Assembly (NCBI GenBank): GCA_018663505.1
Contig: JABJQG010000034.1
Span: forward strand, 1-53,029
Direction of reading: 5' to 3'
DNA from: Pseudobdellovibrionaceae bacterium
GTDB taxonomy: Bacteria; Bdellovibrionota; Bdellovibrionia; Bdellovibrionales; UBA1609
Length of the DNA stretch: 53,029 bases
Shown here: in pieces, positions 29,608 to 53,029 of the stretch
Layout of the letters: each line of letters begins with the position of its first letter
How positions within the stretch are numbered: position 1 is the stretch's first letter
Program-made: the position numbers and the translations under genes
Notes under the pieces: generated by a model
What the model was told of the DNA's origin: nothing
Databases searched by the model: none
Seen by the model: the letters and a program-made list of their open reading frames with translations, nothing else

Positions 29608-30507
29608 ATGAAAAAAACATTTATTGTTTTATTTCTAACGCTTTTAATCTCACCATTTGCTTATTGCATGGATCAAACCATGTTTAAAGATTTGCCACCA
29701 AAAGATGAAATGCTGGTCCAAATTGGGGATCAACCTGATAAAGCATTAAATCCTAATGCTTTTGAAGTGCTTGTTTGGAATGTGTATAAAGCATACTGTG
29801 AAAACGAAAAAGCTTCTGGTTGTGATACAAAGAACTGGTCTGATGATTTTATCCATATAACTAAACAATCGCATATTATTCTTACCCAAGAATCTGTACT
29901 CTCGCCAATTATGTATGAAGTTTTTGAAGTTCTAAGCAATTTCCAATGGAACTTTGCTATTTCCTTTTTCCAAGATAACAAACACCCCACTGGCGTGAAT
30001 ACGGCCACTAGTACTGGCTCTAAAAATAAGCCCATTGCTCTTAGAAGTCCCGATAAAGAAGGGGGATTCACAACGCCTAAAACCATAATGGTGGTCTACC
30101 ATAAAATTGCTGGGCAAAAAGAAGAGCTTATGAGTGTCAATATACATGCCATAAACGTGCACACACTGTCCGCTTTTAAAAGACATATAAAACAAACTCA
30201 AGACCTTATTAAGCAACATAATGGCCCAATTTTTTTTGCTGGAGATTTTAACACCCATGTAAAATCACGTTTAAAGTTTTTAAATAAATATTTTATACAA
30301 AAATTAGGGTTTACCAAAGTTCCTTTTAAACATGAAAAGGATTTAACGGTTTATCTAAAAGGCAAAAAGGTGGGTATCCTGGACCACGCTTACGTACGCG
30401 GTCTTCAGGTCATTGATTCACAAGTGTTTGGAGAAAATTGTAAGAGCTGCAACATTAGTTCTTCGGACCACAAACCCTTTAAAGTGAGATTAAAACTTAA
30501 GCCCTAG
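29608..30507 (+). CDS. Exported endonuclease/exonuclease/phosphatase-family hydrolase
   Basis: 299 residues, signal peptide (LFLTLLISPFAYC) and a strong ribosome-binding site (GGGAGGG). DNase I-like fold motifs in order: VLVWNVYK (Asn), ILTQES (metal Glu), VNIHAINVHTL, FFAGDFNTH (Asp, Asn), ILDHAYVRG and SSDHKPFKV (final Asp-His). An exported nuclease, sphingomyelinase-like or phosphodiesterase role is possible; substrate unknown. Its end overlaps the convergent barrel gene by 18 bp. Confidence 0.88.
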   Translation: MKKTFIVLFLTLLISPFAYCMDQTMFKDLPPKDEMLVQIGDQPDKALNPNAFEVLVWNVYKAYCENEKASGCDTKNWSDDFIHITKQSHIILTQESVLSPIMYEVFEVLSNFQWNFAISFFQDNKHPTGVNTATSTGSKNKPIALRSPDKEGGFTTPKTIMVVYHKIAGQKEELMSVNIHAINVHTLSAFKRHIKQTQDLIKQHNGPIFFAGDFNTHVKSRLKFLNKYFIQKLGFTKVPFKHEKDLTVYLKGKKVGILDHAYVRGLQVIDSQVFGENCKSCNISSSDHKPFKVRLKLKP

Positions 30508-31287
30508 CTTGAAAGAAGATCGAGAAGCTCCCATAACTGTACCTGTTTCAAATCCAAGAGTAAGAAATAAAAGGTTTAACTGAACCCCTGCTACCAATTG
30601 TGTTCCTGATAGAGATGAGGAAATACTATTTCCAGTGGTGAAAGTGAAACCACTGTCTGATGCAGTAGCATTAAATTTTGTGTCTCCAGATATACTTACA
30701 GAACCAAAACCAAAATAAGGTTCAATAAACATAAAATCCTTACTGATCATGAACATCAAAGTTGTATTTGTAGTGTCAAAATCATATTGGCCTGTGGCCC
30801 CAGGGACTGATTGCGCCAAAGACATACTCAAGTTAGCCATGGAAGCACTCACTGAAAGATCAACCGGTAAATCAAGCATTCCTTTGGTTAGAGTCCATTT
30901 TGCAGCAAAACTGTTTGAGCTAAAACCTGCTCCGTCAGCATCAAAGCTTGGTACTAAGTTAAATTCAAGGCCCACACCATAAGGTACGGAAATGGCTGCG
31001 GCCAAACCTGCATGTGGCAGTATAATCTCGCCAGCATTGGCATCTGCGGCTCTAGTTAGGGTTGAGATCTTATCAGCTGCTGTGGTCCCCACATAACCCG
31101 CAACCTCTATTCCAAAAATGGTTCCTAATGCTGATGCCGGCCTTAAAGACACATGTGTAAAACCCGAAGCTAAATCTTGAACCACTCCGTCCACATCATT
31201 TTGATCCATGGATTCAAAAGATATGTTTGCTAATGCCGTATGTGACAACAAAAATACACTGGTTAAAATCAATAATAATTTAGTCAT
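30490..31287 (-). CDS. Outer-membrane beta-barrel protein of unknown function
   Basis: 265 residues; signal peptide ending TALANI; AAGGAG before the start. The mature part is rich in Gly, Ala, Ser and alternating strands (AGLAAAISVPYGVGLEFNLVP, read in parts; MFIEPYFGFGSVSIS, QLVAGVQLNLLFLTLGFE) and ends FKLGLKF. It resembles the DUF6588-type barrels. The last 18 bp overlap the nuclease gene on the other strand. Confidence 0.72.
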   Translation of the reverse strand: MTKLLLILTSVFLLSHTALANISFESMDQNDVDGVVQDLASGFTHVSLRPASALGTIFGIEVAGYVGTTAADKISTLTRAADANAGEIILPHAGLAAAISVPYGVGLEFNLVPSFDADGAGFSSNSFAAKWTLTKGMLDLPVDLSVSASMANLSMSLAQSVPGATGQYDFDTTNTTLMFMISKDFMFIEPYFGFGSVSISGDTKFNATASDSGFTFTTGNSISSSLSGTQLVAGVQLNLLFLTLGFETGTVMGASRSSFKLGLKF

Positions 31288-31461
31288 TTTATTCTCCTTA
31301 TATTTATCCTAAGAATACCTCTGATTTTATCTTAGGTCACAAAGCTTAGCGCTTCTGGCCCTTGGTCACTGGTCTATGGGTTTATGAGTTCAGATTTGGG
31401 TGCAAAGTAGACAGTTTTCCATCCATGAGAGATCAGGGGCTAGCCGCCCCTGAAACCCGCA

Positions 31462-31557
31462 ATTCTTCAACATCGTGTTGAAGAATCTATAAATAACTAA
31501 ATATTTCGGGTCACTATGAGTTTGTTTTATAGATTCCCCCACACGACGTGGGGGAAT
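31462..31557. repeat. Chain of interlocking perfect palindromes
   Basis: In the 485-bp gap 31288-31772 three inverted repeats overlap. A: ATTCTTCAACA / TGTTGAAGAAT (31462-31486, 3-base loop). B: GAATCTATAAA (31483-31493) with TTTATAGATTC (31526-31536). C: ATTCCCCCAC / GTGGGGGAAT (31533-31557). A and B, and B and C, share bases, so they are mutually exclusive foldings. No ORF lies in the gap. It may be a mobile palindrome, a recombination site or a conformational switch. Confidence 0.65.
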
Positions 31558-31567
31558 TGGTGGGTTC

Positions 31568-31603
31568 GGGCCGCCTTTAGGCCCGATCTCCCACGGACGG
31601 AAA
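31568..31603. repeat. Dispersed 30-bp repeat, copy 2
   Basis: 31574-31603 matches 90-119 at 28 of 30 positions. Here it is joined on the left to CGGGCC, giving the hairpin CGGGCC (31568-31573) / GGCCCG (31580-31585). TCCCA and a later TGGGA can pair as in copy 1. It directly follows the palindrome chain, so both may belong to one element. Confidence 0.6.
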
Positions 31604-31772
31604 GGTACCTATGGGAAAGCCAAAACCCCCACTCATAAGCCTATAAGGCTATGAATAATAAAACATAACAGCAAATAAATAACTCCATTTGTAATAATTT
31701 GTGTTTACCTGAAAAAGACACTTTTAGACTTATGCCAGATACTGATATAGTTAATTCATAGGGGTATAAATT

Positions 31773-32834
31773 ATGAAACTTGAACGCATGCAATTATTAC
31801 TTATGAGTATACTATGTATATTAGCTTTCTCTAGCTTGTGGGCTAAGTATATTGACAACCATACACATATTGCATGTTTTGGCTATAAATCAGATTGTTA
31901 TGTTTCTAAAACCATGAAAGATAGTTTTAAGTTTTATGGCTATCAGTATATTTTTGGTCTGAGTGAAAAAAAGGCTCAAACATACGGTGATCAAATTTTA
32001 TTTAAAATTCTTGATGAACAAATTCAAGATTCAAAATGGGTGGACCAAGCAGTTCTATTAGCCATGGATCAAGTTTACTCTGAGCAAGGTAAGGTTTTAA
32101 AAGACAAAACTGTATTTTACATTCCAAATGACTATATTTCTGAAAATATAAAAAAATATAATACTTTTTTATTTGGAGCTTCTGTTCACCCATATCGAAA
32201 AGACGCCTTAAAAGAACTGGAAAAAGTTAAAGCTAATGGTGCCGTCCTAGTTAAATTACTTCCAGCAATCCAAAAATTTGATATTAAAAATCCTTTAACT
32301 ATTGAGTACTTTAAAAAACTTAAAAAATTAAATCTCCCCCTACTCATTCATGTGGATGACGAAAGTGCTTTTTCCAAAAGTCATAAAGAATCTACATTCC
32401 CTTATGATCTTGAGATTCCTTTAAAACTGGGGGTAACGGTTATTTGTGCTCATGCGGCATCGGCAGGTCAAACAAAAGGAAAGGATAATTTTGAGATATT
32501 TATTGAATTTGCTAAAAAATATCCAAATCTTTATGCCGATATATCTGGGTTAGTTATTAAAAAAACTCGATTTGGTCATCTAGAAAGAGTGCTTAAACAT
32601 AAGGAAATCTATGGTCAGTTGATCTATGGCTCTGATTTCCCCTTGAGTTCTCAAGTTATGTCTTCACCCTTTTATTATAGAGCTCGGCTGGGGTTCTTTA
32701 ATTCCATAGGAATGTCTTTTACAACAAACACCTGGGACCGAGATGTGGAATTGAAAAAAGCACTGGGCGTACCTGAAAGTATTTTTGAAAACTCAAGGCG
32801 CCTTCTTTTGCAAAATCAAAAAGCTAACCTTTAA
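31773..32834 (+). CDS. Exported amidohydrolase-family metal-dependent hydrolase
   Basis: 353 residues of the amidohydrolase-2 TIM-barrel type. After a signal segment (SILCILAFSSLWAKY) comes the metal motif DNHTHIACF, then PLLIHVDD (His), VICAHAAS (His) and YGSDFPLSS (final metal Asp). The fold is usual for cytoplasmic enzymes, so the apparent signal peptide is notable; a periplasmic hydrolase is implied. Substrate unknown. Its 3' end overlaps the convergent methyltransferase gene by 42 bp. Confidence 0.82.
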   Translation: MKLERMQLLLMSILCILAFSSLWAKYIDNHTHIACFGYKSDCYVSKTMKDSFKFYGYQYIFGLSEKKAQTYGDQILFKILDEQIQDSKWVDQAVLLAMDQVYSEQGKVLKDKTVFYIPNDYISENIKKYNTFLFGASVHPYRKDALKELEKVKANGAVLVKLLPAIQKFDIKNPLTIEYFKKLKKLNLPLLIHVDDESAFSKSHKESTFPYDLEIPLKLGVTVICAHAASAGQTKGKDNFEIFIEFAKKYPNLYADISGLVIKKTRFGHLERVLKHKEIYGQLIYGSDFPLSSQVMSSPFYYRARLGFFNSIGMSFTTNTWDRDVELKKALGVPESIFENSRRLLLQNQKANL

Positions 32835-44983: not shown

Positions 44984-45027
44984 TTAGCAATTCAAAACTG
45001 AATCATGTTTCAGTTTTGAATTGCTAA
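44984..45027. other. Perfect 19-bp inverted repeat (hairpin)
   Basis: The 19-base arm at 44984-45002 (TTAGCAATTCAAAACTGAA) is exactly complementary to 45009-45027, with a 6-base loop. It lies between the small ORF and the serine recombinase. Too long for an ordinary terminator and without a T-run; it may be a recombinase site, a cruciform or an mRNA end. Confidence 0.6.
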
Positions 45028-45211
45028 TTCCTCTAATATTTAGCCCTACAGATATTTTGATTCAACATTGATCTATCAAATTAAATTAAATTTTTTTATA
45101 CTTCCGTAACCACTTAAAACAATTCAATTTTTATTTTCACAACTTTGGCCTTCCTTTAGCAATTATGAATTTCTAAAAGGCAATGAAGCCTTACATAAAG
45201 AAAGGATGTGT

Positions 45212-45874
45212 ATGAATAAAAATTATCAAGATAGAACCGCAGCCCTTTACTTAAGGGTTAGTACCGATCAGCAATCATCGGGGCTAGCCTCTCAAGAAAG
45301 GGCCGTAAAAGAGTATTGTGAGCATAATCACATAACTAATTACAAAATATTTAAAGACGAAAATCAAAGTGGGGCCAAAGTTTCAAGGCCAGTACTAGAT
45401 GAGATGATGAAAGAAATGAGAGAAGGTAAAATATCTACTGTTATAGTCTTTGCGTTTAGTCGATTTGCAAGATCTACCACCCACTTATTAACAGCACTCA
45501 ATGAGTTTAAAAAACATAATACAGATTTTGTGAGTATCACTGAAAAAATTGAAACAAATTCCCCTATGGGAATAGCCATGTTTACAATTTTGGGTGCTCT
45601 TTCACAAATGGAACGAGAGCTGATTTCTCAGAGAGTACAAGCCGGTTTACGTAATGCTAGAGCCTTAGGAGAACAAATTGGACGAAAGAAAACTCGCCCT
45701 AGTGAGATGATAAGGGCTTTGCTTCGCCAAGGGATGAAATATCGCGAAATCGCAAAAATTGCACAATGTAGCCACGGTGCTGTTTCAGCGGAAAAGCGTG
45801 ATATGTTAAAAGAAATAGCTGCAAATAAGCCAGATCCACCACCAATACTCTCACCTAGCTTAACATTAGTTTAA
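45212..45874 (+). CDS. Serine recombinase (resolvase/invertase family)
   Basis: 220 residues from the ATG at 45212 (AAAGGA five bases upstream; another ATG at 45206 sits on the ribosome-binding site). The catalytic domain has YLRVSTDQQ with Ser17, IFKDENQSGAKVSRP, FAFSRFARS, and the E-helix MERELISQRVQAGLRNARALG. After GRKKTRP comes a small C-terminal HTH (KYREIAKIAQCSHGAVSAEK). Small resolvase/invertase type. A terminator-like hairpin (45880-45906) follows. Confidence 0.92.
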   Translation: MNKNYQDRTAALYLRVSTDQQSSGLASQERAVKEYCEHNHITNYKIFKDENQSGAKVSRPVLDEMMKEMREGKISTVIVFAFSRFARSTTHLLTALNEFKKHNTDFVSITEKIETNSPMGIAMFTILGALSQMERELISQRVQAGLRNARALGEQIGRKKTRPSEMIRALLRQGMKYREIAKIAQCSHGAVSAEKRDMLKEIAANKPDPPPILSPSLTLV

Positions 45875-46759: not shown

Positions 46760-47596
46760 CTAGACAGCTCGGCCCCATATTTTCTGAACAGGTCGACTTG
46801 TCTGTTTTAGTTTCATAACCTCACTCTCAAACTCTTCTGGCGCTTTATAGCCTAATGATGAGTGAAGTCTTTTCTTATTATAAACCTCATCAATAAACTT
46901 TGGCAAGTTCCTAATGACGTCGCTCATACTTTGATAATTTCTTGTAAAAACCTCCTCGTGTTTTAATGTTTTAAAAAATGATTCAATAAATGCGTTATCT
47001 GTTGGCGTAGCTACTTTCGACATCGAAGCTCTAAATCCATGTTTCTCTAAAAATTTCATGTAAGACTCACAGACATATTGCACGCCTCTATCTGAGTGAT
47101 GAATTATTCCAGGTTTTGGTTTTCTTCTTGCTATGGCTACTCTCATTGAGTCTAAACAAAATTTATGCTTTAAACTTTTAGAAATTGCCCAGCCAACCAC
47201 AACTCTTGTATAGACATCAATCACAGCACTTAGATAAACTTCTTCACGACCTAATTTTATATACGTTATATCTGTAGCCCACACCTGATCAGGAGCTGTT
47301 AACTTAAGCCCACGAATCAAATTTGGATGTCTTAAGTTTAAATCACTGTGAAAGCCGCGAGGTTTATTTCTATGTGTTCTTGATGAAAAGATAGAGTAGA
47401 TATTCATAACACGCCTGATACGCTTAGCATTTACCACAACGCCTTCTCTTAATAGGTGTTCTCGAATTCTTCGATACCCATAACCTGGAAACTCAATATG
47501 TATTTTTTCAACAAAACTCTTTAACTCTAAATCATTTTTTATTTGCTCTTTTTCTCTAAAAGATTTTCGATAATATGTAGCCCTAGATATTCCCAT
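46760..47596 (-). CDS. IS3-family transposase, OrfB (DDE integrase)
   Basis: 278 residues from the ATG at 47596, which overlaps the orfA stop (TGATG). N-terminal helix-loop part (ISRATYYRKSFREKEQI, YGYRRIREHLLREG). rve core: VWATDITYIKL (first Asp), HHSDRGVQYV (second Asp) and NAFIESFFKTLKHEEVF (Glu), with SSLGYKAPEEFE at the end, diagnostic of IS3 OrfB. No obvious A6G slippery site; the TGATG overlap hints at stop-start coupling instead of the usual frameshift. Confidence 0.95.
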   Translation of the reverse strand: MGISRATYYRKSFREKEQIKNDLELKSFVEKIHIEFPGYGYRRIREHLLREGVVVNAKRIRRVMNIYSIFSSRTHRNKPRGFHSDLNLRHPNLIRGLKLTAPDQVWATDITYIKLGREEVYLSAVIDVYTRVVVGWAISKSLKHKFCLDSMRVAIARRKPKPGIIHHSDRGVQYVCESYMKFLEKHGFRASMSKVATPTDNAFIESFFKTLKHEEVFTRNYQSMSDVIRNLPKFIDEVYNKKRLHSSLGYKAPEEFESEVMKLKQTSRPVQKIWGRAV

Positions 47597-48033
47597 CACT
47601 TCACATCCTTTTGAAATTGATCCAAATTGTCTGGCGTGATCACGGATGAGTTCTCTTTTTTCTTCTGTCGTGACGTAACTATCGCTTTTTTTAAAAGTTG
47701 ATTCTGAATATAAAGATCTCCTATCTCGGCTTTTAGCTCTTGAATTTGCTCCTTCATTCTAAACATTGCTAGCTCTGTATTTTCTTCTTTAAATTTATGG
47801 TCAGTACTGGGGCCAATTAATCCTTTTTGATATTTCTTTTTCCACGAACTTATAGCGCCATGAGAAACCCCAAAAAGCTTAACTGCTTCTCGATACTTCA
47901 TGCCTTCATCTGTCACTTTACTAGCTACCATGTACATAAACTCATCGGTCCAAGTTGGAGCTCTGCCCGGCGGTTTTTTTGTTTTTTGAACCACAGGGTT
48001 CTTTTTTCTATATATATCCAAAATATCTCCCAA
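47596..48033 (-). CDS. IS3-family transposase, OrfA (HTH)
   Basis: 145 residues, starts at TTG 48033 just after AAGAGG (spacing poor). HTH near 40-75: YREAVKLFGVSHGAISSWKKK, followed by a leucine-zipper-like coiled part (ENTELAMFRMKEQIQEL, then KAEIGDLYIQNQLLKKAI) that dimerises. Recognises the IS ends. Confidence 0.9.
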   Translation of the reverse strand: MGDILDIYRKKNPVVQKTKKPPGRAPTWTDEFMYMVASKVTDEGMKYREAVKLFGVSHGAISSWKKKYQKGLIGPSTDHKFKEENTELAMFRMKEQIQELKAEIGDLYIQNQLLKKAIVTSRQKKKENSSVITPDNLDQFQKDVK

Positions 48034-48249
48034 CCTCTTAAAATACTGGTGTATATCAAGAGTTGTGTTAGGACAAATCTTTGCTCGTTAAATATATGAG
48101 GACTGTCTCAGCAGAGGGGCGCAGGTCAAAACCCTTCGTTTTATTCAGAAAATGTCATGAATGTTAAGGCTAAGTGTGCAATCACTTAGCCTTTGTCTTT
48201 GAGTCCAACCCTTACTTGAAAACAAGTTTTTGAAAGCTGTTTTTCTTCT

Positions 48250-52767: not shown

Positions 52768-52897
52768 TTGATAATCTAATTTAAATTGTACTTTAAACCC
52801 TACTATAGTGCTCAAGATTTTTTAGAAATACACAGGCAAAACGAGAATCATTTTACCTGTGCTTTTCGGTGAAAACCTTCGTGGAAAACGAGAGTTT

Positions 52898-53029
52898 TGA
52901 CCTGCGCCCCTCTGCTGAGACAGTCCTCATATATTTAACGAGCAAAGATTTGTCCTAACACAACTCTTGATATACACCAGTATTTTAAGAGGTTGGGAGA
53001 TATTTTGGATATATATAGAAAAAAGAACC
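52898..53029 (+). mobile_element. Second copy of the IS3 element, inverted, cut by the window end
   Basis: 52898-53029 equals the reverse complement of 48128 down to 47997 as far as it can be read. It starts TGACCTGCGCCCCT and includes the TTG start of orfA at 52993. The rest lies outside the window. Confidence 0.93.
52993..53029 (+). CDS. IS3 OrfA, 5' fragment at window edge
   Basis: First codons only (GDILDIYRKKN), identical to the start of orfA at 48033. AAGAGG immediately precedes the TTG. Truncated by the window, not by mutation as far as visible. Confidence 0.85.
   Translation, partial: MGDILDIYRKKN

Follow-up and report, generated by a model that had tools for sequence, protein, structure and literature searches.

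A dispersed REPIN-like element with two unlike, two-hairpin arms in a Pseudobdellovibrionaceae genome, and Y1 transposase genes beside related arms

Introduction

What kind of element is it in which three inverted repeats interlock between two genes and run into a further repeat found elsewhere on the same contig? The question arises from contig JABJQG010000034.1 of a Pseudobdellovibrionaceae bacterium, all 53,029 nucleotides of which were analysed and are here called the window; the corresponding genome assembly (G000) comprises 3.78 Mb in 72 contigs. An earlier note, made from the letters of the window alone, had drawn attention to positions 31462–31603 and considered a REP/RAYT-type unit or a miniature transposable element, and a search of open literature retrieved no account of a repeat of this kind from Bdellovibrio or related bacteria. 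We have analysed the folding and the extent of this element, its copies in G000 and its relatives in the order and the phylum, all compared genomes being from outside the window's genus.

Results

Extent and folding of the element

The three perfect inverted repeats that had been pointed out are indeed present, at 31462–31472/31476–31486 (11 bp), 31483–31493/31526–31536 (11 bp) and 31533–31542/31548–31557 (10 bp), the middle one overlapping each of its neighbours by 4 bases, and the 30-mer at 31574–31603 recurs at 90–119 with 28 of 30 positions identical. The limits of the feature have to be redrawn, as the repeats at 31462–31603 belong to a wider element of about 282 bp (31370–31651), whose putative limits are set by an outer stem (31370–31389/31631–31651) in the centroid fold. 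This stem surrounds two opposed arms of 77 nt with two hairpins each and an A+T-rich spacer in the middle. The left arm (31416–31492, + strand), belonging to what we term class A, scores 96.3 bits with an arm covariance model (R1) and contains hairpin 1 (CAGGGGC..GCCCCTG) at 31434–31452 (+) and hairpin 2, with apex CATCGTG and evidenced by both fold and covariation, at 31462–31486 (+). The right arm (31527–31603, − strand), of class B, scores 89.4 bits with R1, folding placing its hairpin 2 (apex CGTCGTG) at 31533–31557 (−) and its hairpin 1 (TCGGGCC..GGCCCGA) at 31566–31586 (−). Between them the spacer (31483–31536, +) is closed, according to the fold, by the stem GAATCTATAAA / TTTATAGATTC. 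Imperfect inverted copies of the outer flanks recur in other elements. The window copy lies between two divergent genes, encoding a DUF6588 protein (30490–31287, −) and an amidohydrolase-like protein (31773–32834, +). In an Rfam scan of the window the gathering score was reached by a tRNA only, and the two matches at the element region, both to microRNAs, are far below threshold.

The sharing of bases had been taken to mean that only alternative folds can form, which is contradicted by the RNA minimum-energy fold of the window copy, as it holds all four hairpins; the middle stem, in a shortened form, is kept as well in the RNA centroid and in the DNA fold. The RNA fold of 31366–31652 amounts to −123 kcal/mol against −80.6 ± 4.8 for shuffled sequences (z −8.9, with 0 of 200 shuffles as stable), and the DNA fold of 31416–31603 gives z −7.8. 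Alternative folds do exist in relatives, since the inner hairpins of one copy in genome G041 (L111) and one in G089 (L192) pair with each other in the minimum-energy folds.

Copies in the same genome

A 201-base query of the element yielded 72 matches in G000, and the aligned copies have in common two opposed arms of about 77 nt. Using R1, at least 128 arm matches are obtained at E≤1, a figure that may be a lower bound, as 150 of 839 candidates were scored. These matches resolve into 54 inverted pairs (108 arms) and 20 unpaired arms, of which 10 are near contig ends and some belong to copies that have lost their core (L170 at 5535, L179, L180 and L186). The spacing within the pairs is 33–43 nt in 48 of the 54, the others having 12, 55, 56, 58, 69 and 88 nt. 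Except for four of the 54 pairs, which overlap a heuristic ORF, the dispersal is extragenic. At another locus, in contig C49, a copy matches that of the window with 97% identity along 165 bases of the query. The genome-wide search for the arms that the earlier note had proposed therefore reveals at least 54 similarly built copies instead of two, and the outcome that it held to be fatal, namely sole copies and no relatives, did not occur.

An exact 29-bp pattern found no match when searched in viral contigs. A degenerate arm pattern retrieved 32 loci in genome contigs and 4 in viral contigs, with one match each; the best of these 36 reaches 20.8 bits with R1 and we have taken them as chance.

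Arm classes, pairing and covariation

Three classes of arm are distinguished by their stems, with a few arms of mixed class: class A (AGGGGC..GCCCCT, mostly TTCTTCAACA..TGTTGAAGAA), class B (GGGCC..GGCCC and TTCCCCCAC..GTGGGGGAA) and class C (GAGGC..GCCTC and TCTAATGGCA..TGCCATTAGA). When scored against one consensus per class, all 54 pairs join unlike classes (25 BC, 24 AB and 5 AC), whereas random pairing of the same arms results in a mean of 35.2 unlike pairs and a maximum of 48 in 20000 trials; such a pattern would be expected if a transposon had a distinct left and a distinct right end.

The hairpin stems show compensatory changes. In a structure-free alignment of 23 arms, 95.4% of 368 cells are paired and 56 double changes are counted against 16.6 in shuffled alignments (0 of 500 reaching the observed value). 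Comparable results were obtained for 76 arms (95.5% of 1161 cells; 291 double changes against 108.6; 0 of 500) and for 34 arms drawn from four genera (542 cells, 93.7% paired; 157 against 45.3; 0 of 500), both of these alignments having been fitted to the model, which favours its structure. The measure of further pair types is not above shuffles, the observed value being reached by 425 of 500 shuffles for the 23 arms and by 191 of 500 for the 76. Such changes could reflect selection for structure, but also template switching of the kind that quasi-palindromes undergo between their two arms; the two causes are inseparable here. The triplet ATC precedes hairpin 1 in 22 of the 23 aligned arms and, by eye, in most arms of other genera.

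Outer flanks long enough for comparison over 70 nt are available in 46 of the 54 elements. In the AB and BC pairs among them, the two flanks of one element match better than permuted partners do (AB, n=20, 0 of 5000 permutations; BC, n=21, 1 of 5000), but of all 46 elements only 9 have the own partner flank as the best match.

Relatives in the order and the phylum

Within the order, the arms have a patchy distribution that extends to other families. Whenever more than 40 genomes were searched together, the filters were stricter and 13 to 83 candidates were scored per genome, so that the numbers of matching genomes and the counts for G000 and G089 given below are minima. With R1, three of 58 genomes (G000 itself, 35 of its family and 22 of the order) have a match, two of these being weak single ones; the match in G052 (24 bits) is missing from the four of 140 genomes of the order that were matched in a further search (R2), namely G000, G041 (2 matches), G089 (18) and G107 (1). 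A model built from 34 arms of four genera (R3) matched nine of 138 genomes of the order, two of them weakly (G101, 27.7 bits, and G129, 24.4 bits), and by eye these two look like chance. When R3 was run under a stricter limit on 368 genomes of the phylum, seven were matched and all seven belong to the same order.

The conservation extends to the plan of the element. In G041, one of the two genomes with a weak single R1 match, a second copy (82%) was found as well, and a third place, L111, displays by sequence the full succession of outer stem, two hairpins, spacer, two hairpins and outer stem, and four copies of G089 (L191, L192, L195 and L205) have two hairpins at both ends.

Y1 transposase genes and the arms

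The earlier note had recommended looking for a RAYT-type transposase, and the answer differs between genomes: RAYT-like Y1 genes lie between arms in G089, and no arm-linked one was found in G000. The Pfam family Y1_Tnp (PF01797) has ten matches at nine loci in G000, and these genes were rejected as the cognate enzyme, as there is no arm within 1.5 kb of them (R2 at the ten matches, R3 at the nine loci). Two of these genes, RAYT-like and located in L034 and L039, are flanked by inverted repeats of their own around GGTACGCC (at 1372 and 2121 in L034 and at 1221 and 2069 in L039). The same family has 4 matches in G041, 12 in G089 and 9 in G107, and no arm is found near any of the 13 Y1 loci of G041 and G107.

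A distinct scenario emerges in G089, the one genome on which the link between arms and enzyme rests. At two of its loci, and only there, a Y1 gene is situated between two arms: L290 (arm 916–988, ORF 1026–1562 on the − strand, arm 1598–1650) and L289 (arm 710–802, ORF 913–1449 on the − strand, arm 1486–1537). At L283 a short element (arms 896–970 and 1081–1133) has a transposase gene just outside it, and inside its left arm are about 50 nt that resemble the 3′ end of the L290 gene together with its flank, with a score of 56 against at most 37 in 1000 shuffles. At L285 a right arm adjoins the 3′ end of the transposase gene. A second group is made up of nine near-alike Y1 genes (L222, L225, L227, L229, L230, L231 and L286–L288, the last three with an insert of some 25 residues and L231 being cut by a contig end), each of which has a right arm some 250 bp upstream; the outer side of this arm faces the gene, which is hence beside an element and not inside it. 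The similarity among the nine extends upstream to include the right arm and ends near the stop codon. Among the 16 subfamily matches listed for G089, out of at least 24, an arm is found within about 300 bp in 13, L208, L210 and L284 being unlinked; as the nine genes are duplicates, perhaps four independent situations are represented. The right arms beside these genes are devoid of hairpin 1 and score 12.5–17.6 bits with R3, so that the copies linked to an enzyme correspond only in part to the element of the window; we call these sequences arms because short copies of G089 (L198, L201, L203 and L274) end in the same sequence.

An HxH pair is invariant in the G089 proteins, and seven of the eight that were aligned also have a Y-x-x-x-N motif close to the C-terminus. 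Both groups are above the Y1_Tnp cut-off of 23 (25.1 and 24.3 bits; L223, L222 and L208). Matches to narrower families remain under their cut-offs, with 23.3 bits for REP_Tyr_transpos and 20.6 bits for IS200 in group 1 and 21.4 bits for IS200 in group 2. Solved structures gave weak profile matches only, the best being the ISHp608 transposase (E 0.0071). Of 138 genomes of the order, 82 contain this arm-linked subfamily (FGGS..RPLS..H), and G004, G034 and G089 have at least 24 matches each. R2, applied to 30 subfamily loci from 30 genomes, gave three weak matches, one of them G089's own; the enzyme is thus far more widespread than recognisable arms. In G000 no member of the subfamily is found at E≤1e-6 (best 4.7e-4), yet this genome has the most arms counted: either the enzyme has been lost, or its gene is missing from the assembly through a gap, or the task falls to a different Y1 protein.

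Discussion

Comparison with known systems

The element is REPIN-like and also resembles a transposase-less IS200-type element, rather than a canonical REP. As in the REPIN/RAYT systems described in PMC3116915, it is a dispersed extragenic inverted doublet with a near-constant spacer, forming one hairpin, with compensatory changes and, in G089, with Y1 genes beside the copies. A REP unit, however, measures 21–65 nt and has one hairpin, whereas the halves of our element measure about 70–77 nt and have two, and ATC stands before hairpin 1 in place of the canonical foot 5′ GT[AG]G. With respect to REPINs, the halves are unlike and an outer stem is added; with respect to RAYT systems, no cognate RAYT is seen in G000, and G089 has numerous transposase genes, two of which are between arms. 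The likeness to IS200/IS605 elements consists of unlike ends with subterminal hairpins and a Y1 gene between them at two G089 loci, the differences being that each end has two hairpins in G000 and that the G089 transposase is weakly similar to both the REP_Tyr_transpos and the IS200 kinds. According to PMC6006769, TnpA-Y1 class 3 and subclass 2.6 ('atypical' REPtrons) have on their flanks atypical secondary structures of which further copies exist in the same genome, a description that our element resembles, and class 3 is said there to resemble both insertion sequences and REPtrons; its motif is given as Y----Q, unlike that of seven of the eight aligned G089 proteins. The identification as a REP/RAYT-type unit or a miniature transposable element is thus supported by the dispersed intergenic copies, the inverted doublets, the covarying hairpins, the relatives and the Y1 gene between arms in G089; it holds in a REPIN-like form, since the arms have neither the foot nor the size of a canonical REP, and no arm-linked transposase was found in G000.

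Proposed origin and mode of spread

We consider the element to be non-autonomous, MITE- or REPIN-like, and derived from a RAYT-type transposon with a single-stranded DNA mode of movement, a reading to which we assign a probability of roughly three in four. The two unlike arms would be the left and right ends of the element, whose hairpins a RAYT-like Y1 (HUH) transposase would recognise on one strand, cutting and rejoining the DNA, and the element would leave one strand and enter elsewhere. Full-length relatives would carry the transposase gene between the arms, and loss of this gene would yield a short spacer such as that of the window copy. Recognition of the hairpins, the single-strand mechanism and a past or present mobility in G000 are what we infer by analogy with IS200/IS605 and TnpA-REP, as described in PMC6006769 and PMC3116915. 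Elements of the IS200/IS605 type insert 3′ of a specific tetranucleotide without duplicating the target and pass through a single-stranded circle; for our element, no target site, empty site or product of excision was found. The transposase enclosed by arms in G089 is most likely the one that spreads the repeats.

A more tentative proposal, which we hold to fall somewhat short of an even chance, is that of a new RAYT system in which transposase and repeats still move together, multiplying as an insertion sequence does, and in which internal deletion gives rise to the short REPIN-like copies. If true, such a system would represent an extant intermediate stage between insertion sequences and single-copy RAYTs. 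According to PMC6006769, there is mostly one RAYT gene for each type of repeat, and REPtrons seemingly do not move as a unit, which leaves the origin of such systems open. The path from transposon to repeat population becomes testable in G089, as this genome has candidates for full-length copies as well as short copies, one of which keeps the 3′ end of the gene. In addition, unlike ends and a plan that is conserved across families allow predictions of the features that the enzyme has to recognise, and further copies can be sought with the covariance model.

Alternative explanations

Strong covariation of the stems would also be displayed by a structured RNA element kept for a function at the 3′ ends of genes, such as 3′-end protection or bidirectional termination or attenuation, and not mainly mobile; roles of this type are reported for REPs in PMC6006769. 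The gene context of the copies agrees in part with this reading, the figures being rough, as they rest on heuristic ORFs with some overlapping loci counted twice. Nine of the 54 elements are at contig edges; the 45 with a gene on either side are found in 23 convergent, 18 tandem and 4 divergent gaps; of the 18 tandem ones, 17 have the element closer to the 3′ end of the upstream gene. Under a stricter ORF rule the convergent arrangement accounts for 20 of 45 gaps with an element against 14 of 72 element-free gaps of at least 150 nt. Two solitary arms of G041 (L109 and L110) have a T-run after hairpin 2, as a terminator would, but no T-run directly follows hairpin 2 in the G000 copies inspected by eye, and a simple terminator was dismissed on the same observation. 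The four divergent gaps, one of which is that of the window copy, are also at odds with a role at gene 3′ ends, as are the failure to reach an Rfam gathering score at the element and the transposase between arms in G089, and we regard this explanation as improbable.

A repeat that was spread long ago by a transposase since lost, and that is now immobile and drifting with covariation due in part to template-switch correction, would account for the lack of a cognate enzyme in G000 and for the copies with a deleted core. Conversion between arms, too, would be expected to produce the likeness between flanks of the same element, in which the own partner is so seldom the best match. The near identity of the window and C49 copies at different loci argues against it, and we hold it to be less likely than not; as a description of the present state it is mostly compatible with the single-strand transposon derivative that we favour. 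Least probable, to our judgement very much so, is a MITE of a classical DDE transposase, akin to the long ERIC-like palindrome, which would be beside the Y1 genes of G089 by chance: the long imperfect terminal inverted repeats and the single large hairpin would suit it, but unlike ends in every pair, a Y1 gene between arms at two loci and the linkage at most of the listed G089 loci, in part duplicates and so not independent, would not. By eye, an integron attC site and a CRISPR-like array were likewise discarded, as there are no cassette genes and no tandem array, respectively.

Other features of the window

The repeat of the 30-mer at the start of the window has an explanation of its own. Positions 90–119 (− strand) are what is left of the class B arm in a second copy (R1, C58:91–119, 26 bits), with the outer flank reaching by eye to about 160, and positions 1–89 (−) are the end of an IS481-family insertion sequence that lies in hairpin 1 of that copy. 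One end of this element occurs ten times in the assembly, and in all nine occurrences with a readable junction the insertion is within hairpin 1 of the repeat; the contigs concerned are C14, C24, C31, C36, C53, C58, C66, C69 and C70. Insertions of this kind explain both the 30-mer at 90–119 and a good number of the contig breaks. The transposase encoded by a copy in contig C56 (L161:57–1220, −) matches the IS481 family with 184 bits, the curated cut-off being 224. The constant position in hairpin 1 looks like strict targeting of the REP type; the accessible part of PMC1525189 names IS3, IS110, IS4, IS256 and IS5 as families with REP-targeting insertion sequences and makes no mention of IS481.

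An IS3-family element is located at 46760–48135 (264 bits for the ORF at 46760–47599). Its 139 bp at 47997–48135 recur inverted at 52891–53029, the contig end, with 99% identity, so that the contig seems to stop in another IS3-family copy. A nearly perfect 22-bp palindrome without a loop (44984–45027, 95%) is by eye unrelated to the element, and a serine-recombinase-like protein of 222 aa, perhaps truncated, is encoded at 45206–45874 (best NCBIfam match 98.7 bits, far under the cut-off of 900). Finally, hairpins followed by a T-run that resemble intrinsic terminators are seen by eye just before six copies in G000 (L124, L125, L154, L170, L181 and L184) and three in G089 (L193, L197 and L200).
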